From positions 26,145,166-26,209,165 of the forward strand of contig NC_092579.1 in NCBI RefSeq assembly GCF_037975245.1: DNA of 64,000 nucleotides, read 5' to 3'. The position numbers were made by a program, and so were the translations under genes. Source of the stretch: Apostichopus japonicus. Its lineage: Eukaryota; Echinodermata; Holothuroidea; Aspidochirotida; Stichopodidae. The stretch's first letter is position 1; every line of letters begins with the position of its first letter. This document shows positions 6,501 to 62,159 of this stretch, piece after piece. The notes under the pieces are model-generated. The model worked only from the letters and a program-made list of their open reading frames with translations. It was not told the origin of the DNA and ran no database searches.

Positions 6501-7069
6501 AAACAAATATGGCTTTGAGATGTTAAATAAAAAACTATATAGATATGGAAATGACTGTAAAGCCTTTCACGCCCCAATCCAAATTAAACCTAAAAAAGGT
6601 CTCTATGAGAGTTCTTCAATCAAATAAGAGACAAATTTGAAGAAATAATAAGCTTGACTACAAACTGAAGCAGTGGTTCAGAGCAGAGCAGCAGGGTTCA
6701 AACTGATTACTAGGATCTAATTGAGATGCAGGTACTGGAAACATTAAACGTTGACCAACTTGATGACAAAGGTTGGAACATTGAACATGTTTAAAGCAGC
6801 ATTTTGCGTCCTTTTCTATGATATTTCTCAACCTCACTGACTCCACTATACCATAACGACATACATAACTAACTTATCTATTTAAATCTTACTTCAAATG
6901 ATGGCATAAAAGTCGAAAAATTTGCAACTTTCCACTGTTTTTCTCCAAGATATTTTCCGTTGGGATCCCAATAAACCTCGCCCATAATATGAATATTTAA
7001 ACCCTACGAACGTCATTGACCAATACGTAATACAACACCAAGCTTGATTTGTGCACAGTCTAAATGGCA
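3568..7069. other. Non-coding stretch, no recognised gene
   Basis: No family-level coding similarity was recognised. An isolated ATGGCGGCC start in good context followed at once by a GTGAGT donor occurs at 4991-5011. It could be a tiny first exon of a plus-strand gene, but no downstream exon was found. Confidence 0.45.
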
Positions 7070-7108
7070 GTTGTACCAGGGAGTTCCATAACAACTCCCT
7101 GGTTGTAC
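7070..7108. mobile_element. 25-bp palindromic insertion with 7-bp target duplication
   Basis: Bases 7077-7101 form a short inverted repeat (left arm CAGGGAGTT, right arm AACTCCCTG) flanked on both sides by GTTGTAC (7070-7076 and 7102-7108). A closely related 31-bp copy sits at 61440-61470 with its own 7-bp duplication. It has no room for any gene, so it is either a minimal non-autonomous element or a terminal-repeat remnant. Confidence 0.7.
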
Positions 7109-10100
7109 CAACGCAAAGTCTTGAATCTATTTTTAGCAACGGCTCATAACTTAACCTGGATCTCTGATTGGTTGAATTCAAACTAGTGGGTTTGGGGGAA
7201 CTGTATGCGATTAATTTTAAATGTGGAATTTTGTCATGGATACTTTTCTCATTATCTGCAAATATCCTTAATTATTCGCCAATTAACGATGTTGGCAGGG
7301 AAAAACTTGGCTGATATCTCAGTTTGCTGTTTTGTGATTTATATATGTAAAAAACTTGATGGACATGTCAAAAAAGTAGAAAACGGCGACCAAACGCAAA
7401 ATGCTGCTTTAAGCTCATCAAAACGAACAGCACTATGGCACACATTAAATCAACTCAGGGAGTGAAATTGCTTCACAGTTGAACAACAACATGATGTCAA
7501 ATGTTTTATTAATATCTCATAAAAAAAGTGCAAGTTTGAAGCCATTTAGTTGGGACAACCATTTCATTGCCATGGTTACCAGTGGTGATAAACAATCTTT
7601 GCAACTCTCCTCAGGAAACAGTCTATACAAATAAGCATGAACTTGGTTAGCGCAGCAGCGAATGAAGGAAACCTTCAGATGGTACTCTCCTTACAATACT
7701 CTAGTAATACTTATGAATTAGTAGAGCCCATCTTTATTGACCTATCCACCGAGGAAAGAACATCTAATTGGTTTCAAAACATGGAAGATGTTTTCAGAAT
7801 TACAAGCAAATTAAATTTTACTGCTAGAGCTTGCTGAAATCTAGTTGTGCTTTACATTAAATGTAGAACAGTGAATGGACTATCTACTGGTCATGAAATT
7901 AGGGCAATAATAATGTAAAAAATAGATCTGCATATTAAGTGTATCAATAACAAACCACATCCATGACAGATGGAAAGGAGCATCTGTCAGACATTTGTTG
8001 GCAGGGGTTGAGGTAAAAATGGTAGATGTGGGTGTCCAAATTTTTAAAGTTGATGTCCTACCTTCTTGGGACAACATGATCAAATCAAGGGGCCAAAAGC
8101 ACCTAAAAAGCCCTAAAAATGTGACCAGTTAGGCAACACTTCTCAGTAGTTCTGTGGCACAGCAGTATTTTGTAATGCATGCAAACACCCTCAGGCACAT
8201 TTTGCCCAAAACCTGACACAACTTCTTTTTTTTCAAAGTCCTAACGGCATGTACGTATGTGCTTAAGTAACCCCTTTGCCTTAGTGGTATGTGCCATGGG
8301 AAACAATACTTTACGATTTTGTTCCGCTAGCTGTACAGTTACATTTTTTCTTAATTGGAAGTTACTACTTCTGGTAAGGTATTTTGTAGTAACATTCTGC
8401 CTCAAGTTCGTAATATGATACAGCAGTCACTAAGCTCCTAATCCTCAACTGACCACAGCAAGATAGATTTCCAGCGACATGCGCGACAAAGTCAATGGAA
8501 CTTTAGTGTGTGAATTCTCCCGCATGTAGTTAAGTCAATGGAGAAGGGTCGTTGACCGTATAAAAGTGTTCAAATGATGATCGATCAGGATTCGCTCGCA
8601 CATGATATTCAATGTAAACTTGAAGCATGTAATTGACTCTATTCAATTCACCACTGCCACTATCCTAACAACGGATGCCTTAACATTAGGCTACTACTAG
8701 CATACCAGTTTGCATTACTAGCTATAGACATCAACCTGAGAAAACTTGTGAGAAATTTACATGGCTTCATATATACTTTGCAAGCAATGCCTTGAAAATT
8801 AGGCAGCCAATTTGCGTAACCGGCGGTGCAAAAGACGGCTGGACAACTGGCTGTCTAAACCCCTGTTTGTTAATGTGTAACACACAAAAACTCCTTTGAA
8901 GATACAACGCTTTCATAGATTCATTCAGGTAAAACAAGAAATATATGCAAGCAGTTAAGTAACACTTGAAGGGATCAAAAGCTGACATTAGCATACTACA
9001 CAGTACGCACAGCGTTCGTTATTACTACAAGTACTATATCTCAGTTAGTTCCAAGGAAAGATTGCATAGTCCTAATATTAACCCATGAGGCCACTGGTTA
9101 CAATCTCCTTCTAGCCAAATATGTTTTTGTTCATTAACAAGTATGTCTCAAATGTTATAACTCCTAAATCAAACTGAAATGCACCAACCTAAAGCTGCTT
9201 TGGTAGATCCACAAGAACTTGTAATTCTTAAATCATTATTTACAATCCTGAACATATTTGTCTGTCGAATTGTTTTCATGTATGTCAATTGCTCTTGAAA
9301 TCCTTCACCTGCACTTTCTGGGTTGCATTGATTGAAAGTGGTTATACTTGGGTTTATACTAATTTTTAAAACACAGTGTTTAATAACTGTGGCTCAGCGA
9401 TCCCAGCCAGGAACTGGTTAATAGGATCCTTGGATAGACATGCCCAGTAACTTAAAGTACCTAATATTAAGTAAAACTTAAAGTTAACCGGAAGTGACCT
9501 CTATGATATGATACAGGGCAGCCAAACATTGTGAGGGCAACAACAGAAACAACAAATATAAGTTTTGTCATCACCTTTACAAGATTACAGTCTTGTGCTA
9601 CATACGTCCAAAAAGTATTATGTACATAGGTAACGTAATCTAAGATGCAAGCCAGGCAAAAATATAAGGCAAGAATATATTTCTCCAATCATAACCATGG
9701 TTATTATTTTTTTTTCTGCTATCATTTAGAAACAAATATTGGTAGGAAAACTTTATCTCCAATTTTTGGGTAAAAGAGACTTGTAGTGAGATTTGTAAGA
9801 GCATTATATAGTTCATTAGTGACAAAGCTGAAACAGTGTAAAAATATAAGACAAAATGGTATTTTAACTAAAGCATTTGAATCAAGTATTTTTGTATCCT
9901 TTTCAAAGTAATCACTCATAAAACATGTTTGTTAGTTTGCTGTGTCTGACAACAATGTAAAATAACATCTTGCTTTAAATCTGCATACATGAGAATTGTT
10001 TAAAGAACTCTGATGAAAACTAACCTGTCAAATTAAGCCTCCCCGTCCCTCCACCACAACCTCCTTCCATAACGATAACCAACACTACCTACTGCTGATT

Positions 10101-31787: not shown

Positions 31788-32395
31788 CAAGGGCGGCGAC
31801 ATCAAAGGGCACTTTGCAGAAATTCGATTGGACTGATGCAGCCTTATATTTAGTACCCTTTATAACTCTCATTTGCGTATACACATTACTCCATCAACGC
31901 CCCCCCCCCCTTCAAGGTAAATATGCATACTAGCACTGCAATATCAAATGTGCAAAATGGGAAACAAGGAACAAGTTTTCTTTTGAGACAAAACGAGGTG
32001 AAATCATGCTAGTTGCTAAAGTAGGAATCTTCCGAATTATACTTTATTCTTGTTAATATCTTAACAAATTTTTTCCATTCGAAATAGCTTTGAGTTTGAC
32101 CCACAGAAATTCATTAAAAGTCAGGGGCGTAGCCAGGATTTGCAAAGTTGTATGCACGACTATCTGAGCGGAGCGCCACCATCGGTTGGCGCGGAGCGTA
32201 CAAGAAAATTTGTGGTTTTACAAACCCCTCAGATGGCCGGAAACGGCCCTTCCCGAGTGTTCATTCTGGTTCCCTGGCTGCTTACTTGAGACACCTCAAT
32301 TTTTATGTAGAAAAAGGGCACATTTTTAACCTGAGGAAAAGTGGGGGGCCACGTGCCCCCTGTGCCCCCCCGGTTTCGCCGCCCTTGTCTACAAC
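31780..32395. mobile_element. CAAGGGCGGCG-type MITE, 600 bp, with 8-bp target duplication and nested family copy
   Basis: The element spans 31788-32387 with ends CAAGGGCGGCGAC and the complement of CGCCGCCCTTG. TCTACAAC flanks it exactly (31780-31787 and 32388-32395). Starting at 32122 (CAGGGGCGTAGCCAGGATTT) it contains about 180 bp of the CAGnGnCGTAGCC MITE family also present at 28799, so one element probably inserted in the other. Its right end is C/G-rich. Confidence 0.9.
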
Positions 32396-38700: not shown

Positions 38701-41700
38701 ACTTATTGTACAAACTGTGACAATTTCAATTTGCAAATGTCTTAAAAATGCTAAACTTGTAGGAATTGTAATTTCCACTTGGATGCTTAGGATAAATGTT
38801 CCTGTTTCATTAACAAAACAATATTAAAGACGTTTGTTGCTGAATTTTACATTCACCGCAATCTTCATCAGATATTGCCCAAGGCAAAAGAAACCAGTTT
38901 GCATCAAACTTACCTGGAGGTGCTGTTTGTTGAGGAGGATAGTAGGGTTGTGTGGGGTATGCATATCCCTGGGGTGGTACCTGGCCCTGGGGAGGATAGT
39001 ATGCAGGATATGGTTGTTGTTGAGGATACCCTTGGGGATATCCCTGTGGATATGCTTGTGGAACTGGTTGTGGATATGGCTGGGCAGCAGGTTGTGGTGC
39101 TGTTCCTTGCGCCTTTGGATGAGGTGGTGGTTGTGTTGGTGCTGTAGAGGAAAGTCAATGGTGGTGTTGGTGTGTATCAAAAGATGTTCATCCAGGATTT
39201 AATATCTTCTAATTTAATCAAATTTGTAACTTTATTAAGTATCCTAGATCTAGACTACATCAATGCTTAATTACTTACAACAATCTGAAATTCTTTTCTC
39301 CCCACTAACTTCCATACACTTTTTATCATGAAAGCTATCACATCCAACACAACTCTATCATTTTAATTCTCATTACAATTAGGGTATTAATGAGAATTTA
39401 ATCAGACTGACTTAAAACTTGTGTATTTTAACATGAGGAAGAGAGGAAGGGAAACATTTGGGACCTATATGATACCAAGAATCCTAATCGATACATTAGA
39501 ATCAGACTTGATTGTACAAGTGTGAAAGATTGACTGGACAAATGATTTCAATATATGGATTTCACTTAAAACATTATGGGCTTCAATCCACATGGGCATC
39601 TGCAAAGAGTGACTCTATTAGGGTTTTAGTATTATCATTGTTACCACACTAAATCATGGTATTTTGTTTTACATAGTTATCACCATCACTAAACAGAATT
39701 TCACCTATATAATCTTTCATAGAAAAGTATCATGAAGGCACAACGATTGAGATGCTGTACATACAATCTACTAACCTTGTTTCGCAATTTTGATGAGTGC
39801 CTGACCAACAGTTACTGCTCCTCCTGATTTAAAGGTTAATTTGAATCTGGCCTCTCCTTGCCAATCACCTAAAGAAAGGATCATTAACATGTATTATCAA
39901 ATCAACATATATAATACAAAGGAATGCTAATAAATCTTTGCTTTGAATTGCTATGTCTGTTCCTACCCAGACTTCAATGAATGTAGTTTCAAAGTTATTG
40001 ATATCCGTGCCTTCCAACTTGCTATGTCTGTTTCTATCCAAACTTCAATGAAATTGGTTTCAAAGTTATTGATATCCATGCCTTTCAACTTACTATTTCT
40101 GTTACTATCCTAACTTCAATGAATCTGGTTTCAAATTTATGGATATCCATGCCATCCAACTATGCATTGTTCATTCTCATTCGATAAATGGTCAACTTTC
40201 CACTTGCAATGTTGCATAAGATTATGTGTATAACTTTCAAATATCGATATGTATGCTTAGAGATACAGCAAACATTACCAAAAACGCACACAATTAAGGA
40301 AGTGTATTCATGAAAAACAATAAGTTATTGTCAGTTATTCTATTGTTTCATTTTAAGCCATGAAAGCCTCCATCACTCATCAGACTACACTGAAAACAGA
40401 AGAGCACTATAACTTGCATTAAACCAAATCAATTGATATCTGTACAAGCAGACTCTCAAAAGAAAATACCTCGCAAGCGAATACTGTCTCAAAAAAACCA
40501 CTCATAAAATACAGTGTTAAAGTAAGTTGGCCTGACGTTTCGATCCTAGCAGGATCTTCTTCAAAGGCTAAATGACACCCTCACATTCTCCTACACAGGC
40601 TCTCTGGTGGATAAGCAGTTTGCTAACAGTTTTATTTTATTTTTATTTTCATAAAATACAGTGTCATCATTACCTCCAGGTTGAGCCAGTATCCTCCCAC
40701 CGAGATAATTTGCTCCAAAGGTCGGCTGTTTGATTTCAAAATCTTTCATGTAGTAGAACGGCATAGAAAATGACTGAAGCAGATCGTTAGCAGATGACTT
40801 GAAAATAAGCTGGGGCAAGATTTGAAACAAAATTGACAACGCTATTAAACCACCAACTATAATATAATAAACAAACAATTTGTAATAACACTGAATCATT
40901 GAAAATGTTCCTCCCTCTACCAGATTTATATGATTCAAGACAAAGTTTCTTAATTCCAAAAGTGAAAAGAGATATAATAGAGTATGGACTTTTGAAAGTA
41001 ATCCCTAACCACTACCAACAACAAGCTATGTGCACCAGGTACTGGATCAAGGAATTGTAGTCATCCCTAACCACTACCTACAACAAGCTACAGTATGTGC
41101 ACCAGGAACAGGAACAAGGAATGTAGTCATCCCTAACCACTACCAACCAGGGCTCGAAATAAGCGGCGGCCAGTGCGGCCATGGCAGCGGGTGCCCTCGC
41201 CACTGGCCGCGATGCCCAAGGGAAAATTACTACTATCAAGGCCAGTACTGGCCTTGCCCTTTTTACCCATTGGCCTCCGTGCCTTTTGCAGGAATAGGCA
41301 TTGGACAAATGCGACTTTGAGAATGACAAAAAAAACGAATCATATGTTCCGAAAAAGCGTGGCTATTATTCGCAGAAAATGATGAAGAGCATGCTAGCGT
41401 ATCGCGGTCACAGGACGTGAATAACAAACTGTGATCGAAAATTGAACATCATCACAGTACTGACCTTGGTAGTTGGTGTGAAAACGTACCGCATTCTAAC
41501 GGTACAAGAATGTGAGCCTATCCAACTGATTAATATACGACTGCTCCGCGGGCTATCATTGCATTTTCGTAACGTAGTTCAGTGGGAAATTCAGTCGTAA
41601 TGCAATACAGTGTTTCTAAAATCGCGAAGAAATTATTCCAGGGACAACAATGTGAACAAAATCATCATATTCCGAGAGAGAACATGTTTAGCTTCCTAAC

Positions 41701-44700
41701 CATATCATTCACGTTGAAAGAAAGTTCACAAAAGTTTACAACCAGTAGCAGCTACGGTCAAACCACACCTGCACAAAGTAGTACCATTATACAGCTTTGG
41801 CTGATTGACGTCACAGAATCGTGCTCGCTTATTGGCTTAACAACTACATGAATGCGAGGTGATTGGTAGAATCTGGGAAATTCCCAGTAGAGTCAAGTTA
41901 CACAGGATTATTTCGGGAGGGTGTGTCACTATTGGCAATTACAAGTACAGCCAATTTCAGGCGGGAGTCGGAAGAACGAATAATTATGAAGTGGAGAGTT
42001 GTACACTGGAAGCATATGCAGTTAAGTTGTATTATCGACAGTGTTTCGGCGTTGTGTATGAATTTCATAATAATAATGCTGTTTCATGAAGGAGTGTTAC
42101 GCGGCGGTTTGAGGACCCAAACTGTAGCGGGTTCGGTTATGATCATGAAAGTTCGAGCATATATTCCCCGATGTTTTTTTTTTGGGGGGGGAGGGGGCCT
42201 GCGTGTATTCGGAAAAAAATCATTCCCGGTGGTACGGGTGATATCGCCTGTGATATTGGATTGTTATAAACTTCTGTAAAATCGAGTGGGGCTAAGTGCA
42301 AGGCGCCAATGGGAAAAAAGTGGAGTGGGCCAGGATGAAAGTGGACATTGGCAGGCATCACAGAAAAGACAAATTCATCCCCCTGTTCCAGAAGATGCTG
42401 CAGGATAAGGCAGACAAATATCCCAACTTGCTGCACCTGGTGCGCATCATCCTGGTGATGCCTGTGTCCACGGCACAGGTGGAAAGACAGTTCTCCTTCA
42501 TCAAGAGATTTCAGGGTGACGGCCGTCTGAGCCTGGGCCGCCAGACCGTGGAAGACCTGCTGAGGGTGTGCAGCGAGAGACCTGCACCAGGCACCATCTG
42601 TTTCAAGGATGCGGTGCAGAGGTGGTGGTCAGGTGGATTGGCTGTCAGAAGGCCATATATGAGATCCCGTAAGCCGAGGGACTTGCCCCTGATCGAGGAA
42701 GATCCCCTCAGTGACAGTGTTTCAGACTCCTCTGAGTAGTGGAGTGAACAGGCTTTCCCATGGTGTTAAATGCAGGTGATAAACTGGTGTTAAACTGAAA
42801 TTCTCTGCGATAAGTAATTTTTGCTGAGGAAAATAAAACAGGTTACAAATTGAGACATTCTTCGCGTCATTTTTCAAAGTGGCCTTGGTGCCCTACTCAC
42901 AATTTCAGCGTTGGCCTTGATGCCCTCCCCAAAAACATGTATTCCAAGGCCAGTTGGCCTGCCCTAGAAATTACGAAATTCGAGCCCTGCTACCAACAAC
43001 AAGCTACAGTATGTGCACCAGGTAGAGGTCCGAGGAATGTAGTCATCCCTAACCACTACCAACAAGAAGCTACAATATGTGCACCAGGTACAGGAACAAG
43101 GAATGTAGACATCCCTCACCACTACCAACAACAAGCTGTGTGCACCAGGTAGGGGAACAAGGAAATGTAGTCATCCCTAACCACTACCAACAACAAGCTA
43201 TGTGCACCAGGTACAGGAACTAGGAATGTAGTCATCCCTTTAAACCACTACCAACAAGAAGCTACAGTATGTGCACCAGGTACAGGAACAAGGAATGTAG
43301 TCATCCCTAAACACTACCAACAAGAAGCTGTGTGCACCAGGTAGGGGAACAAGGAAATGTAGTCATCCCTAACCACTACCAACAAGAAGCTACAGTATGT
43401 GCACCAGGTACAGGAACAAGGAATGTAGTCATCCCTCACCACTACCAACAACAAGCTGTGTGCACCAGGTAGGTGAACAAAGAATTGTAGTCATCCCTAA
43501 CCACTACCAACAAGAAGCTGTGTGCACCAAGTACTAGAACAAGGAATTGTAGTCATCCCTAACCACTACCAACAACAAGCTGTGTGCATCAGGTAGGGGA
43601 ACAAGGAAATGTAGTCATCCCTAACCACTACCAACAACAAGCTATGTGCACCAGGTACAGGAAAGGAATGTAGTCATCCCTAACCACTACCAACAACAAG
43701 CTACAGTATGTGCACCAGGTACAGGAACAAGGAATGTAATCATCCCTAACCACTACCAACAAGAAGCTGTGTGCACCAGGTAGGGGAACAAGGAATTGTA
43801 GTCATCCCTAACCACTACTAACAACAAGCTGTGTGCACCAGGTACTGGAACAAGGAATTGTAGTCATCCCTAACCTCAAATGAGATTTGACATCACAAGC
43901 AACAGGGTTCTTGTACTCAACATGGCAAATCCATATACCATGTATGAAAAGTATCCATGATTTCTACCATTTGGCGACCTAAACTAAAAATCTAGCCACC
44001 ATAAGTGTATTGGTATTCTGACACGAAACATTTTTTCCTTCACGCTTTTGCGTTAACGAACTCGATTTCACTTTACCGTTGTATGTACAAGCCATACATG
44101 AACCTTTATTCACATGCATGTACGGAGTGCAGATGCGACACAGTTAATTCAATGAAAATTGGTTTGCAGGTTTGCTGAAACTATCTACAGATGCCCATTA
44201 GCTACTTTCAAATTGCCAACAGTCCCTCCTACTCTTATGAGTTGTAACACACGTTATCTAATAGGGTGGACGGTGGGAAATACGATAGATTATAAAACAA
44301 GGTTTCCACAAATTGATCTGTGGTGACTCCAAATGACCTTTGACCTCCACAAAAAACAATAGGCTTTTGTTCTTAACGTGTTACAACTACATACTAACCA
44401 CGAGATTGGTCCAAGCTTCCCTTCTCGAGATATAGTGATTACAAACAAGGCGTCACACACACACACACACTCACACTCTGCATGACTACATACATAGGTT
44501 ATGATTATAATCGAAATTAAAAGCTGTGTAAACCAGATAGGGGAACAAGGATTGTAGTCTTGAGTGCAATTCTAGTTTAACCCCAAAATTTCCATGTATG
44601 TACCAAATAAACAAACTAGAAATTGTCATAAAACTTAATTTTCATTTCATTATATTAACGAATACTTCACTCCTAATCTAACACACACACACACTTGGTA

Positions 44701-46114: not shown

Positions 46115-47082
46115 CGCGCGTATGGAAAGCCGTTTTAACATTTAATAAGGAATTTCAGATATCTCGAAATAATTTCAGATATCTCAAATTAAATTACAGA
46201 TATCTCCAATTTATTTAAGATATCTACAAATAATTGCAGATATCTTAAAATCAATTTCAGATATCTCGAAATACCAGGGAATTTCAGATATCTGAAATTG
46301 AATTCGAGATATCTCGAATTCAATTTCAGATATCTCGAATTCAATTTCGGATATCTCGAATTCAATTTCAGATATCTGAAATAGAATTTCAGATATCTCG
46401 AATTCAATTTCAGATATCTCGAATTCAATTTCAGATATCTGAAATAAAATTTCAGATATCTCGAATTCATTTTCAGATATCTCGAATTCAATTTCAGATA
46501 TCTCGAATTCAATTTCAGATATCTGAAATAGAATTTCGGATATCTCGAATTCAATTTCAGATATCTCGAATTCAATTACAGATATCTGAAATTTCCCGAT
46601 TAAATGTTAAAATGACTTTCCATATGTGCCATTTTAACATTTAATCGGAAATTTATGCATATGCATTTCAGATATCTCGAATTCAATTGCAGATATCTCG
46701 AATTCAATTTCAGATATCTCGAATTAGAATTGCAGATATCTTGAATTCAATTTCAGATATCTCGAATTCAATTTCAGATATCTCGAATTAAATTTCAGAT
46801 ATCTGAAATAGAATTTCAGATATCTCGAATTCAATTTCGGATATCTCGAATTCAATTTCAGATATCTCGAATTCAATTTCAGATATCTGAATTAGAATTT
46901 CAGATATCTCGAAATCTATTTTAGATATCTCGAATTCAATTTCAGATATCTGAATTAGAATTTCAGATATCTCGAAATCTATTTAAGATATCTCGAATTC
47001 AATTTCAGATATCTGAAATAAGAAACAATTTCAGATATCTAAAATTCCCGATTAAATGTTAAAATGGCTTTCCATACGCGCG
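46115..47082. repeat. Inverted-repeat-bounded array of palindromic ~21-bp units
   Basis: Outer ends are inverted copies of about 45 bp. The left starts CGCGCGTATGGAAAGCC at 46115; the right ends GGCTTTCCATACGCGCG at 47082; both continue into TTTTAACATTTAAT next to the array. Inside are some 40 units with core TTTCAGATATCTCGAATTCA, in which GATATC and GAATTC are each self-complementary. At 46590-46660 two further end copies face away from each other, joined by CATATG, so the structure looks like two elements in tandem. No target duplication was found. The Arg-Tyr-Leu-Lys open frame here (46189-46575, minus) is spurious. Confidence 0.9.
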
Positions 47083-47886: not shown

Positions 47887-48198
47887 CTCAATTTATACTA
47901 TAGCTGGTGCAGCATGATTACTCAAAATTAAGATTAATTAATGCATTCATGTAAAGATTAATAGCGCCACTGGACTATCACATATCACGCCAGGTGCAAT
48001 AAAATGCTAGCACCATTAAGTTGGTACAATTACAAAAACATCACAATTAACAACCCAAAAATCATAAATAAGGTAAAAAACAATTACTTAAGATATTATG
48101 ATTGCCTAAAGGGTAAATTAATTTGCAACTGTACAAATATCATAAAGTATTTTTTTACTTTCTATGAGTTTGTATACAGTGAGCGTCTAGGAAACAAC

Positions 48199-51100
48199 AT
48201 GGCGACCTCCATAGCAGCAGAGAACTCGACATCCGCCGATATTAGGCAGTCAATTTCCCGACAAATCAGCTGTTTAGGTGATGGCAGCCGCAGCGCAAAA
48301 CGAAGGGCTTTAGAATTCATACGGAAAAACACAATTAACAAGAAACAATCCATCGATACCGATGTTTTGGAAGAAATCTTCTGCAGCGACCTACGAAAAC
48401 CGTTGTTACGGTGTTTTAGTGACCCTGTTGACAAGTGTAGGGAATTGAGCATTGAGCTTGTGAACGAATTCATCGACATTTTGAGTACGCCGGGCAATTT
48501 ACTTCCATATCTCATTCCTTGTGCGGTTCAACGCCTTGGTCAAAAAGAGATCACAGAAGGTGCGGAAGAAATAAGGTTGCTACTGGTCGAAACAATTTTT
48601 AAAGTGATAGAAAAGTGGGGTGAAGATCTTGGACTGTATGTCAATGACTTAGTCAACATATTTCAACAAACACTTGTAGATCCATTTCCAGATGTCAGAA
48701 AGCAAAGTTGTCAGTGTGTATGCAAAGTTGCTAGGAATATTCCGCAACACTTTCATTTACAATCAGAGGCCCTCATTAATCCTTTGTTGAAGTCCAGCAG
48801 TCACCAACATTCCAAAGTAAGAGCTGATTGCATCTACACTATTGGGGATGTTTTACAGTTTGGTAACCCCAAACCCATGGAAAAAGTAAGTATTCATGAC
48901 AAAAGTGTGCTTGAAGTAAGACCCACCAATGCATGCAGTTGCTAAGCACTGGGGCACCCAATGTATACCACACAGTATAGAGCTCATAAAAGGCAAGCAC
49001 CACAAGTACCAAGGTCAAGTTATCAAGGTAGTGTCCACAAGGGAAAACACACCAGAAGAAAATTTAAACAAGAAGTAGACATAGGCCTAATCTTAGTATA
49101 AAAAAAAATACTAAATTTACTTAAGTCATATTTGAACCTGCAGAGAGTTAGCTATGCAAATTTACGTAATAGGAGATTGTGCCAAATATAATAGCAATAA
49201 TTGTTTTAGTATTTAATTAACCATGAATTGCTCTATAATTTGCAATTGAGAAAAGGTCATTATTAAGAGTGAAAAAAATACAGAGGGTAATTTAGTCATT
49301 TGGTGGATGATAAGGCACTTGTAAGGAAACATTACTGCAACAATTGAAGACAGCCAACCAAGTCTTGTCTACAAGAAGTCTGAGCATTTAATTTTGCAAG
49401 ATTTGGATTGGTTTAAGAGTTGAAATGTTGACTGTACCATATATCTCAATCACACAGGCCTGTCTAGCTAAAAGTGATATTATTACTCACCACCTTATAT
49501 ATCATTACATGTATATCAAAGTTTTAGGCAATGAACCTGAAAACATGAAGGACATCTATCTAATTTCTGTAATTTTGTTTTCTCTTTATGGCATTCAGTT
49601 TGTAAACAATGGCATGTATCTGCAAGTAATACAAATGCTATCTAAATAGCAACATGTATTAAGAAAGCAAAGAATTATGATCGAAATTAAATTGGAATCA
49701 ATAACCTCAGAAAATTTTGTCCCCTCAATCACAAGCTATCCATAACTTAGGTTGATGGCGATCCCTAATTTAATTCATTTATAATTCCATGGTCAGTTTT
49801 AGATCCTTGAGCGAAAGTGGTCTCCATTAGCTTGGAGCCTTCCTTCAAGAAATATGAATATTTGGACTGCATTCCTTAGCAGTTAGTTTTAGGATAACAA
49901 TTGTTTATAATGAACCATGGTTAGTGCACTTCAACAAATCTTTTTGAAAAACCAAAATTGAAAGTTTTCTACCTTTCAACTTTACTTACATAAAAAGTTA
50001 CATAAATTGTTTCCGACCATCTGCAGGTTATATCACATCTTGCGCAAAGATTGTTTGATGACTCTCCCGTTGTCCGTCGAGCTGTAACTGAGGTCGTCGG
50101 TAACTGGCTGCTAGATTACATTGACAGATACTCTTATCACCACAAGTTAATTCCTCTCCTTCTCACAAGCCAATCAGATGAAATTCCACAAATTGCTGCA
50201 AGGGTAAGTACTTGAAACTAAAATAATTCTATTAGAACTGGTCATTGACAGTTACTTTTGTTCATTCAATTCAGCAGCATTATTCTTCAGGTGTTAGAAT
50301 GAACCTTAATGTATTTTTTTCACATTGTAGGAAGTTAATAATACTTCACAATACGGATACCAGATCGTTACGAGTGTTCCAATTTCAATGATTAGAAATA
50401 TAATTAAAATATTAGATCATAATTGAGATGTAAATTTACATCAGATCAATCTCTATCAAAGCTGAATTACCTGCGATCTGTGTGTTAAAGTCCTGTATGT
50501 GAAAAAACATATAAGAGCAAAGCTTCCAATTTGGTAAATGATCAGCTTTTATAACCATAATTAGATGTATGAAAGTAATAAAAACAAAAGAACTCTGGAA
50601 ATGAAAGCTAGCTTGCTTACAGAAGACATGATGGTACTATAAATAAGGGTTCATACAATGTTTGTAGAAACAGTCATGGAGTTTACAAAACTAGGAATTA
50701 TTAGACAGTGTTGTTAAGGCGTCCCCATATGTAATTGTGCTGCAAACAGCCCTGCAATGTTTGAATAATAATTTTAAGTGCATTCATTTATTCACTCATA
50801 TGTAGGTGGTATAGTGCCTCTATAATTACCAACTTCAACTTGTCTCTGTTTGGCATGGGTAGTGGGTAAATTCATCTCTGTTCCTTAATTTTCAGGCACT
50901 GGGAAGGTTCACTTTTATTACCTTTAGTTTAGCAGCCTTTGATGGTTGTATACATTTTGGTTTTAAGGTATATTTCTTCTAAATTAACAGGCAAATGAAC
51001 TGTGGGACAGTGTTGGACAAAAGTACGTGAAGGAAAATAAAGAGGAGCTGAAAGATGAATTGCATTATGATGATAAAGGAGATATGCACAGCATGGGAGA

Positions 51101-54100
51101 AGGTAGGATATGCCTTGATGGTTTCAATTGCTACCAAGTTTAATGATAATATTGCTTAAAATTATGTTTCGTTCTGCTTAATATACTCATTTATGTAATG
51201 ACCTGTAATTGTATGTATGTATTTTAGATCCTCCTGCAAGCAGGAACTTGCGAAGAAGCCATCATTGGCTTATCAAAGCCGCAAGCTGACCAAAGTCAGT
51301 CTCTTAGATTCATATTTTAACGTCAATGATTATGAATTGTCAATTGTCAACAACTCTCTAACTGGATGACATACATTAATCTTGGAGTGACTCAACCTCA
51401 GGACCTTATCCAGTGATTGAAAGGCACCAACGTTAACCACTGAGCTAACACTCCCTTAGTGGTAATTACCAATGTTTAGTTGTTTATAAACCGAATGAAA
51501 TCAACATTTAAAAGAAAGTTGTATTAAGCAGTAAATAAGAGCCTTGCGCAACCCTTATTGTAGATATGATGTGTAACTTTATTCCTCAAACTCTTCCACA
51601 GGTCTTGCAGTGCAGAGAACGAACCTTGGCTGTCGAACCCTTATATACCGGAACCTTTCAAAGATCTTACCAGGTCTGCTTAATGACTTGGCAGACTGGG
51701 CTGTGATGAATCGCATTATGGCTGCGAGACTATTGAGAGTGCTTCTGTTGAATGCAGAAGATCACACTACTCAACACATAGCCAAGCTTCTCCCTGGTCT
51801 TTACAGAGCTGTCACTGATGAAGAAGAAGAGGTTGCGACCCAGGTAAGAACCCATCATGACTCTTAGTTCATGGATGGCTGAAAATGAAACCTGTCAGAA
51901 GCAACAGGTATTGTATGTAAGTTTACAATGCATTGGTGTGATGTTAACAGATTGTGTACAGTCAGCTTTCTCAAAAGTTTAAAACTAAGTTACTGTTAAA
52001 TTACATCACATCTGGAATGACAATTGTATGCTTGCAGGTATCAAAATTGTTCAAACTTAAAGAGGTTGTAAACTTTCTTTAGTTTGTTATCCAATCAAAA
52101 TTTGGTAAAAATTTACATCAATATATGAAATTATCTTTTACACCAATGTCCCGACAAGAATTCTTGTCTGTTTGTGGTGGAGATAAAAAATTAAAAAAAG
52201 ATTCTCATAGTCCAAACGTTATCAAAGAAGAATTCATGTATAAATGGTACAACATTAGAACAGTACTTGGGTTTACTGATGATGAAATATTTAAGGCTAA
52301 GGTGATAGTGTTTTCTTGTCAAAGTTTTAACAGCTGATCTGATTTAGACATTGGTATGGACATAGCTGTGGTTCAACATAACTATTGTGCTCTACACATG
52401 CAGAATGTACAATGCAATACTTACCCTGTATGCATGCATCACATGTACATCCAGGCATGTACAAAAGATGTTACAGCAATACAAAAGTGGACATTTTATA
52501 AACACCAGGTACGGTTGGAATTACTTGTAAACAATCATCTCTCATTATGTCTAAACCTGCTGGTAAAGCAAAAGCACAGTAAGTATTATGCATTATCTAT
52601 ATATTATCATTGATAGCCCTTTTAGTTGGGAGATTCTTTCCGTAACCAATTTCTGTTTTGTTGAAGAGCATGAAATTTGTACTTCTATCATATTTGAATA
52701 ATTCTAACATTTCATATGTTGACAGGCAATTGAGTCAGCCAAGTTGGTAGGTTTCTTCATTGGACCTGATGTCTATTGCATGCTGGTGCTGCCTTACATA
52801 GTCTCCAATCCATCATGGGGAGTATTAAGGACTTTCAGCGCCATCTTGGAAGGTACTTCGAAAGCACGGCTGCAAAATTTCGTCACCGAGATCTGCAATA
52901 CGCTGACACAATCTGACGTATACTGCAGTGATCAGGTTAGTTCCAACAGCTCGCCGTTGCATCACAAAGTCACTGGGTTTCCCGGTTAACTTTAACTTCT
53001 ATTAATTAATCTTACAACAGGAAAGTGAGTGATGGCAGATGAGCAATAAGCTCTGTGCATTTCCTTCACAAAGAAAAAGTTTACACAAAAAAAGTGATTA
53101 TAATGTTAGAGGATTAACTAAAGGTTTATAGAACAAACTGATCTAATTTCAAACAGGACAACTCAAGTGTTGTGCACGTAATGGATCTTACATACTGCTA
53201 TAAACATGTCACATTGCATTGCCACTGGTAATTGCCATTAAATGCACCTTATTTTTTGTTTATGCAGATGATGTACCAGGTACAGCTACTAGCATGCGTT
53301 GATGCTATCATGACTTGCTGCGGTGATGGATGTGAAATAGTCAGCTTTCAACTCTTCTTTATTCTAATCTCCCTCTTGGCCCAGACAAAAGAGGAACCAC
53401 TGAAGCGGAAGGTATCGGCAAAGCACTTATCTCTTCACCTCTATCTTATTAAGATATCTAATAGAAAATAAAGTGTTTATAATCTTTATCTTGCAAAATA
53501 AAGTTCAGAAAGAGAAATGAGAAGTGTTAAAAATAAATTTGGAAGACAGATTTGATTGCCATATTATTTAGGTACATAGACAGTACAGGGATACAACAAT
53601 ATGTCCTTCAAATCACCTTGGCTTCACGTGGCAACAATTAGTGAATTTATTCTTCAGAGAACCAATTCATGTTCACTGAAAAATGTGGAGTTATTGTTAC
53701 AGTATTTAGCTGCTAAATAAACCATGCTTATTTTCAACCCTAATTAATTGTTAGAAATTTCATGGACCATTTTTGGTATTAAGTGGAAACATTTAATGCT
53801 TTAGCCATCAACTGTTCACTTCATGACAGGGGTTATGCTAAGTGGGTAATGGCAAACCATATATTGTAACAAACAAGAATACCATAACAAACATATTGCT
53901 GTAGCCATCAATTATGTATTTCATGCCTGGGGTTATGCTATTTGTGATGGGGCAAACCATGTTAAGAGTAATTTACAAGATATCTCCCTACTCAAGCTTC
54001 TCACTCTCGTTAAATATTGATGACAGATTTAAAATCTTTCAGAATATTTGAATCATCTTTGAAGACATGTATGTAAAATTTGATTTAAATTTTTTCACGA

Positions 54101-57100
54101 TTTGTCTAGATCAAAGACAGCCTGCATCGTTTAGCTGTTCTGCAATCAATGGAGAGTGACAGTGACATCTTCACTGCCCATGCCAAACAGATGATCAGTA
54201 AACTGAAGGGAAACTACACCAATTGGGCCAGTTTTTCTGTGGAAAGAGCAATTTTTGATACTGTTTTACTTGAGGCCGGTAAGGGTGCCTTCTTTTTCAT
54301 TTTATTTAGCAATTAGATATGTTTTCTGGCTAAATTTCCTGTAGAAGTCATCATTTACAAATAGTGTTGCAAGATTCTATTTATTTTCACTTCACACGAC
54401 TAATTTTTCACACATGGGGATGCCCCTTATCAGGTAGTAAAAACTGTTTTTGCACAGTTTACATGAAATGTTCTCATAAAGTGTAAAATGTGGCAAGGAA
54501 TCCTTTCTGGTTGTAAATCAAGTGATCCAATAATGGCTGTTTAATGTACATCCTTCCTCTCCATTGCTAACTAAATTATGCGCAAAAGTTAATTGGTAAA
54601 TATTAGTAGCCTACAGGCCTTCACAAATTAACCACGACTAGTCAATCTGTCTTATCTATCATCAACTGAATTTAAGCTAACATAGACCAAACATAGACTT
54701 ATAACAGTGACAATATTCTTGCATTATTTTCATTCTATTTCTTTAAAACAATGTTTGTTCTCCCAACATGTAGTAAAACAGTAAGCCAATTAAGCTGTTC
54801 ACAACACTAGACACTCGGGAGGAGAAAGGTGTTTTCTAGTCATAACACATGATATTGAGAATACAGAGAAGTAAGACTTTAAGCAGGTTTCTCTGTGTAT
54901 ATGTTTTAAGGTACAAGTGTTCTGAGGAATATGTTGAGGAACTGATATTGATTTTGCCTAGAATTTATAACAGCAATTGCTTGTAACATGGCTGCTAGAT
55001 ATAAACAGATATTTGTCTCTCAGCAGCAAAGTTTGAAATTTGTTTTCATGTTACATACTTTCTCAGTATTACATGTAAACCTACTACACAAACTTACTGA
55101 AGTAGAGCCAATTTGGATGACTTATTAATTGGGTTATAAAAAGGAAATGGCTATTGTCTCCATGTTATGAAAAGCATTCTAGTTTAGACATAATTGGCAT
55201 TGATTAGAAGCACTTATGGGATTTAAGTTTCAATGGAAGATTTGGGTGTGAAAAGTTACCTGTTTGTTCCCATAGTTTGTATACAAAATGCAGGGAGAAT
55301 TATTTGGTATGAAGTTGACAACATGTCTTGTCAGTTTGTTATCATTGTGTCCTCTGGATAGTACGTGAGGTTATATCACTAGTAACTCATGTTATCATGA
55401 GAATATAGAATAGAAATATGTGAAGAGTAACATGGTTTGATTTGTTTCACAGCTATGTCATTTATTGGTAGCAAGTGCAGTCATTTGAATTACATTTCCA
55501 GTACACTCTAAACTTATGCATTTGTTTTTCTTTCTAGGTCCAGTTGCAGGGTCACTTCTGGACGACATCATGCCTGTGCTATTGACAAACCTTAATCCCG
55601 AGAAGGATCCGGAACTTCGACTTAAGTTATTCTCTCTGCTCGCGCAACTGTTAGTCAATGCTAGTGAGACGTTAGACTCACAACACCGATTCAATGCTTT
55701 AGTACCAGTGGTGGTACTTGAAATGATCTTACCAAACTGTGTCTGGTGTGGAGGGAGGACGGCTGCTGCAGTACGTACCACCGCTGTGTCCTGCCTGTGG
55801 GCCTTGCTAAAGAGTGGTTTAATATCTGCTGATCAGGTAAGACCTACCTCTTTCCTTAAAGATAGATAGAAAACTTTATTGTCCATTTCAGAAAACAAAA
55901 ACGGAAAATTATTTCCCATCGACATTAAACATAAAACAGTAGTGAATACAAACAAAACCATACACTAAACAAGGTATTAGTGAACAACTACGAGAATAAA
56001 ACTAAATAAGCAGAACCAAAACAGTAACAGAAGCAGCACAGAGAGCTGCAAGTGACAGATCACACACTGTGGCCAGACTGCTTTGCACGCGAGATAAACT
56101 AGTATATTGCCTAAGGTAAGAAAGAATTACGGAACCTGGACGTTTTAGTATGGGGCACCTGTAATCGTAACACATAAAGCTGGCCTCCTGGTATTCATTA
56201 ATGTATCTAGTACATACCTTTAGCTCATCCAGTTTATTTTGTATGGATTATTCAAGATTAAGGAAAGGAAAGAAGAGGAAATAAAAACCATCTTTCCCAT
56301 AAATGACTATCATTTACAGGTGTGATAAATAAACAGAAATGGACCAATCTTCCAAATGGTATGTCCTCAAAACCAAACGATGCATTATTTAATTGTGTTC
56401 TTTCATAGTTGCTGGAGATGATGTCCGTCCTTCTTCCGCAAGCCACTAGTCTTCTGGAGGATGACGTTCGAACGACTCGACTGATCACATGTCGTGTCTT
56501 GCAACGTATCCTGGAGATTTGTGGTACGAGGCTGCACCCAGACACACTACATACCATGTACATGGAACTCCTCAAACGACTCGACGACAGCAGCGACGAG
56601 ATCAGATTGTCCGTCACCAAGACGTTTATGACTTTCTTCAGATGCTTTCAAAAAGAATACGATGTTGTACTTTACAAGGCACACATTGAAACTCTCTACA
56701 GAGGGCTACTGGTGCACATGGATGATACAGATACAGACATACAACAAGCTGTCCTAGGTAAAGCCATTTACTATGTTTACAAGCGATCTATGAAAGGCAG
56801 TGTTTCCAACGTCACAATTGCATAACGATTGTTATACTTGAAATTAAAGGGTTGAAGCCCTTGTGTTATCTCTTGGTATCTCTTACAGCTTTCAAGTTTG
56901 TGTAAAAGTAAGTTGGCCTGACGTTTCGATCATAGCAAGATCTTCTTCAGAGGCTAAAAAAAAAAAAAAAAACATTCTATTACACAGGCTCTCTAGTGGA
57001 TAAGCAGTTTGCTAACAGTTTTATTTTATTTTGATTTTAGCTTTCAAGTTTAGAATTACTTGCTGTATATTGTATGCTGTATATTTGCTGTATATTCAAA

Positions 57101-61432: not shown

Positions 61433-61477
61433 CTCAGACCAGGGAGTTGTTATTCCATATCAACTCCCTGCTCAGAC
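61433..61477. mobile_element. 31-bp palindromic insertion with 7-bp target duplication
   Basis: Bases 61440-61470 have 10-bp arms CAGGGAGTTG and CAACTCCCTG around an 11-base centre. CTCAGAC flanks it exactly (61433-61439 and 61471-61477). The element at 7077-7101 is the same sequence in the same orientation with six central bases missing and one substitution. Confidence 0.75.
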
Positions 61478-62043: not shown

Positions 62044-62159
62044 GTAGCTATAGCTACATAGGTTCTCTCTTACTATTGAAACTGACAACTTTATATATAT
62101 AAAGTTGTCAGTTTCAATAGTAAGAGAGAACCTATGTAAAGTTGTATATACAACTTTAC
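62044..62159. repeat. Chain of three overlapping perfect palindromes (14, 84 and 24 bp)
   Basis: 62044-62057 is a 14-bp palindrome. 62055-62138 is an 84-bp perfect palindrome with 42-bp arms, centred in TTTATATATATAAA. 62136-62159 is a 24-bp palindrome. Neighbours overlap by 3 bp. Each was checked base by base. No genes or target duplications are associated. Confidence 0.95.

Follow-up and report, generated by a model that had tools for sequence, protein, structure and literature searches.

Two short palindromic inserts, one of 25 bp (copy 1) and one of 31 bp (copy 2), occur in the window, by which we mean the whole 64-kb stretch of DNA that was analysed. We read both of them as scars (footprints) that one DNA transposon of the P superfamily left on excision. 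Its ends would be CAGGGAGTTGWTATGGA... and its target duplication 7 bp long, and we give this reading a probability of roughly 0.5, slightly better than even. What moved was probably a longer element, since departed, because each insert can be read as two ends, neither longer than 17 nt, that stand between intact target duplications, as in P-element excision junctions. The preliminary description of this DNA had taken the 25-31-bp hairpin for the mobile unit itself. That claim is not supported, as the anatomy of the inserts matches published P-element excision junctions. The joined stubs resemble a tiny palindromic element because both ends are inverted repeats.

The features of the two sites are as follows.

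61433-61439 (no strand): left copy of the target duplication of copy 2, CTCAGAC; read directly, identical to 61471-61477
61440-61453 (+ strand): putative transposon end X of copy 2, kept to 14 nt, CAGGGAGTTGTTAT; the same 14 nt start the long end of copy 1
61454-61470 (- strand): putative transposon end Y of copy 2, kept to 17 nt, CAGGGAGTTGATATGGA; 16/17 match to the long end of copy 1
61471-61477 (no strand): right copy of the target duplication of copy 2, CTCAGAC; read directly
7070-7076 (no strand): left copy of the 7-bp target duplication of copy 1, GTTGTAC; read directly
7077-7085 (+ strand): putative transposon end of copy 1, kept to 9 nt, CAGGGAGTT; from the decomposition into ends
7085-7101 (- strand): putative transposon end X of copy 1, kept to 17 nt, CAGGGAGTTGTTATGGA; from the decomposition into ends
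7102-7108 (no strand): right copy of the target duplication of copy 1, GTTGTAC; read directly
6791-7412 (no strand): putative host element of copy 1, 622 bp, with perfect 19-nt inverted ends TTAAAGCAGCATTTTGCGT; arms 6791-6809 and 7394-7412, 100% complementary

Read directly, the site of copy 2 (61433-61477) is CTCAGAC, the 31-bp near-palindrome CAGGGAGTTGTTATTCCATATCAACTCCCTG (61440-61470) and again CTCAGAC, and the site of copy 1 (7070-7108) is GTTGTAC, the 25-bp CAGGGAGTTCCATAACAACTCCCTG (7077-7101) and again GTTGTAC. An 8-bp repeat, GTTGTACC, is also possible for copy 1 when its target is taken to include the first base of the insert, which makes the reading asymmetric; copy 2 permits 7 bp only. 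The 25-mer becomes the 31-mer by the addition of six bases, GTTATT, and one A/T substitution, and in this the preliminary description was right. Inverted ends CAGGGAGTTG..., which begin with CA, stand on both sides of both inserts; they are a weak marker that is also found in hAT ends.

Two ends, X and Y, of 17 nt each and different at one position, account for every base of both inserts. Copy 1 can be written as a join of ends cut at 17 and 9 nt and copy 2 as a join of ends cut at 17 and 14 nt. On the minus strand copy 1 reads as CAGGGAGTTGTTATGGA followed by the reverse complement of CAGGGAGTT with one base in common, i.e., the final base of the 9-nt end belongs to the other end as well (1-nt microhomology). 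Copy 2 reads on that strand as CAGGGAGTTGATATGGA followed by the reverse complement of CAGGGAGTTGTTAT, and here X and Y meet with neither overlap nor extra base. The sole mismatch among the 17 positions of the two long ends is at position 11. The length of the long end is 16-17 nt according to copy 1 (18 nt if base 18 of the parent was A) and at least 17 nt according to copy 2. Both inserts are thus covered by ends of at most 17 nt, a fit that is partly circular rather than an independent proof, as the end sequences were derived from the same two inserts and a split into prefix and suffix is possible for any internally deleted palindrome.

The 14-mer CAGGGAGTTGTTAT has exactly two exact matches in the window and one further match with one mismatch, on the other arm of the 31-mer. 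When up to three mismatches are allowed, the window contains eight matches against 7.27 expected, which is the chance level. Therefore the evidence lies in the combination of features and not in the 14-mer alone. We scanned the window for structures of up to 45 bp in total whose inverted arms match exactly over 9 nt or more and which stand between direct repeats of 7-9 bp. There were three matches, namely copy 1, copy 2 and one at 46294 in a tandem-repeat array. This array (46286-47010) consists of units of about 21 bp rich in AGATATCT/GAATTC and yields long open frames and palindromes. The same scan of 100 dinucleotide shuffles found one match in a single shuffle and two matches in none of them; coincidence was rejected on this result, in agreement with the preliminary description. 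Hairpin folding of both stretches gave z-scores of -4.02 and -5.15, with an equally good fold in 0/200 shuffles for each, but these scores merely restate the palindrome.

Like hairpins that have no duplications do arise by chance or as other signals: the paired-end pattern was found at one locus in viral contigs, where the pattern needs 10 nt of each end and so misses forms like copy 1, and at six loci in bacterial genomes. We used these hairpins with the same arms as outside controls. None of the seven loci (in bacterial genomes and one viral contig) has flanking direct repeats of 4-10 bp. Thus it is the duplications, not the hairpin, that mark the two sites in the window as transposition events.

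The 1-kb surroundings of the copies, compared with the window by BLAST, have no similarity to each other or to anything elsewhere in the window, the sole exception being an internal 38-bp direct repeat near copy 2. The preliminary description had also considered that both loci might lie within one longer repeat. What is found is that copy 1 lies inside an inverted-repeat element (arms 6791-6809 and 7394-7412) and copy 2 in none comparable; together with the lack of similarity between the surroundings this means that no longer repeat is common to both, and this candidate was rejected on the BLAST comparison of the unrelated flanks. Given these flanks and the shuffles, we consider it extremely improbable that the pair is a coincidence or that the hairpin is a part of a longer repeat common to both copies.

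Direct reading, shuffles and flank comparison together bear out the central observation of the preliminary description, i.e., two related inserts between perfect but different 7-bp repeats and in unrelated flanks. For these same reasons two separate transposition events of one family are supported. The preliminary description spoke of active or recent mobility. Mobility that is active or recent is weakly supported, as 14 perfect target bases give no useful age limit.

The 622-bp stretch that surrounds copy 1 has ends that start with TTAA. It is probably a non-autonomous transposon with TTAA as its target, and the parent of copy 1 would have inserted into it; no second copy of it was found in the window. 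About 600 bp from copy 2 there is a perfect 84-bp palindrome (62055-62138) made of two 42-nt arms without a spacer, with TA at its start and end. It is possibly a short TA-target (mariner-like) palindromic element, and it has no second copy in the window either. A 600-bp stretch at 31788-32387 has ends CAAGGGCGGCG and an 8-bp repeat TCTACAAC, and parts of it recur at about 28.1-29.0, 62.5, 63.2 and 63.9 kb. The window also contains exons of dynein axonemal assembly factor 5 (DNAAF5/HEATR2) at 47965-56825 on the + strand, in keeping with an animal-like genome.

The origin of the inserts as scars can be outlined in three steps. A full element would have inserted at each site and duplicated 7 bp, as the flanking repeats suggest. 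By analogy with the Drosophila P transposase, a transposase would then have excised the element with a long stagger, so that either flank retained a single-stranded tail made of about 17 nt of an element end. Finally, host end joining of the tails, with one end trimmed, would have closed the gap and produced 17+9 nt with a 1-nt microhomology in copy 1 and 17+14 nt with none in copy 2. The sequence itself shows the duplications, the division of the inserts into ends and the match between these ends, while the former presence of a longer element, its P-type cutting and the repair by end joining are inferred.

The targets are compatible with such an origin to a different degree. GTTGTAC, the target of copy 1, agrees with all four positions of the GT...AC core, as do 0.34% of the 7-mers of the window. 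CTCAGAC, the target of copy 2, agrees with three of the four, as do 4.3% of the 7-mers. The duplication is 7 bp long in both copies (also readable as 8 bp in copy 1), which lies within the 7- or 8-bp range of the P superfamily, two cases being too few to establish a 7-bp rule.

Neither a parental element nor any longer copy that carries these ends was found in the window. The scan for it covered lengths of 60-6000 bp with exact 11-nt ends and duplications of 7-10 bp; of the 23 rows obtained, 21 fall in the tandem array at 46.3-47.0 kb, and none starts with CAGGGAGTT. A window scan for CAGGGA beside a 7-bp direct repeat returned only the two known copies. The Pfam search took 104 of the 212 open frames (at least 60 aa), the other 108 being mostly shorter and some of them derived from simple repeats. 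None of the 104 frames of the window matched a P transposase or a THAP domain. The 17-mer deduced from the inserts occurs at six loci in viral contigs, by estimate about the number expected by chance, and in the DNA around these loci a second end of at least 10 nt is present in none. We found no report of these inserts in the open-access literature with the terms searched. The 14-nt ends appeared there in one paper only, on larch chloroplast DNA, as judged from its listing.

Two inserts in 64 kb (95% limits 0.24-7.2 per 64 kb) is a high density for scars. This counts against the reading as scars: if the density is typical, there should be thousands of scars genome-wide, yet the window has no intact copy. 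The implication falls if hops are local or if the window was picked for having two inserts. Unless one of these holds, the density fits an amplified tiny element better than scars, as two inserts per 64 kb without a longer relative here are what such an element would be expected to produce. The corresponding rival explanation is a truly mobile non-autonomous element of 25-31 bp, which a transposase acting in trans would recognise, cut and reinsert as such. This explanation is also favoured by the presence of two copies whose sites are unrelated and whose target duplications are perfect. As for the near-identical copies expected of a MITE, however, there are two copies in 64 kb, and over 31 bp a 6-bp gap and one substitution separate them, which is more than expected of fresh copies, while their duplications are still perfect. 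P and hAT transposases use internal binding sites, for which 31 bp leaves little room. Moreover, no such element was found in the literature search, by its listing. We thus hold this explanation to be quite unlikely. Its strongest form, in which a 25-31-bp palindrome equivalent to about two abutted transposon ends is mobile in its own right and has reached thousands of copies in this animal genome by amplification, we consider improbable. Scars that regain mobility would be one possible route to such an element.

Another explanation is that the inserts are end-only remnants of a hAT element, or of an element of another superfamily with terminal inverted repeats, formed via abortive gap repair or other internal deletion and not by P-type staggered cutting. 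The window does contain a hAT-like element, at 41148-42989 (1842 bp). Its ends read CAGGGCTCGAA, its duplication is 8 bp long (CTACCAAC), and one of its frames carries a hAT dimerisation domain, at 42296-42739. The element shares the CAGGG start with the inserts; unlike them, it has the 8-bp duplication, and its ends differ from theirs after CAGGG. Targets of hobo (GTNCGNAC) have the same GT...AC core, and the example query of Repbase asks for hAT families with 7-bp duplications. Against this, hAT duplications are typically 8 bp long, a length that copy 2 does not have and that copy 1 allows only asymmetrically. In addition, hAT excision proceeds via hairpins on the flanking DNA, and the resulting scars are described in PMC3878927 as random footprints, not as paired end stubs. 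Random internal deletions would also seldom leave 17 nt or less of both ends on two occasions. We regard an origin from hAT or another such superfamily as unlikely. An insertion of the Dada superfamily would fit in the length of the duplication, which is 6-7 bp according to PMC8869645. However, many Dada families target tRNA and snRNA genes (PMC8869645), and the window has no tRNA genes (bacterial settings) and no Rfam matches. Dada was rejected as this RNA-gene target is absent from the window, and we consider it very improbable.

Most likely, the two inserts are neat but otherwise ordinary scars left by the excision of a P-type transposon that is itself unseen. If they are scars, P-type transposition of the past leaves a record in an animal genome, in the form of end-joined stubs, even after the loss of the element. 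From sequence alone, their junctions would then reveal for genomes outside Drosophila by which pathway the break was repaired and whether the stagger is 17 nt long. They would also serve as a warning that repeat annotation can take scars for ultra-short mobile elements. If, on the other hand, the inserts are mobile elements themselves, the smallest size possible for mobile DNA would be about 25 bp.

The closest parallel to the inserts is found in P-element excision in Drosophila. According to PMC7776569, the cut that P transposase makes on the 5' strand lies 17 nt within the element end, a stagger that is unusually long compared with other cut-and-paste transposases. The donor flanks keep 17-nt 3' tails of the P-element ends after cutting (PMC2895639). 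Table 1 of PMC2895639, on Rad51-deficient flies, has both 8-bp target copies kept in 63 of 66 P-excision junctions. By our recount of these 63, there are 24-34 bp between the target copies in 24 junctions, 4-7 bp in 20 and more than 34 bp in 14; 45/63 are pure joins in which neither end exceeds 17 nt, and two of these are 25 bp long. The inserts in the window are like these junctions in the intact duplication on both sides, in the joined remnants of inverted ends of at most 17 nt each, in the length of 24-34 bp seen in 24/63 and in the short or missing microhomology at the join. They are unlike them in several respects: the junctions are experimental, come from Rad51-deficient flies and have 8-bp duplications, whereas here there are 7 bp, another end sequence, two natural loci and an unseen parent. 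The 4-7-bp class (20/63) is also not seen among the inserts of the window.

Other members of the P superfamily resemble the inserts in further features. A 7-bp duplication is typical of 1360, being present at 274 of 279 sites as tabulated in PMC3276498, and the duplication of Galileo is also 7 bp (PMC4168063, PMC2775673). These two Drosophila elements share with the inserts both this length and the GT...AC target core, while the ends and the transposase of the parent are unseen here. The core is common to 1360 (GTTNAAC), Galileo (GTANTAC) and P (GTCCGGAC), and also to hobo, a hAT element. The ends of the inserts start with CA and finish with TG, as in Drosophila P (CATGATG...) and zebrafish Pdre2 (CATACCTG...). 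Zebrafish Pdre2 / THAP9 differs in its 13-bp ends CATACCTGTCAAC and its 8-bp duplication. It is nevertheless alike as a non-insect member of the P superfamily whose short terminal inverted repeats start with CA, and its excision activity has been demonstrated.
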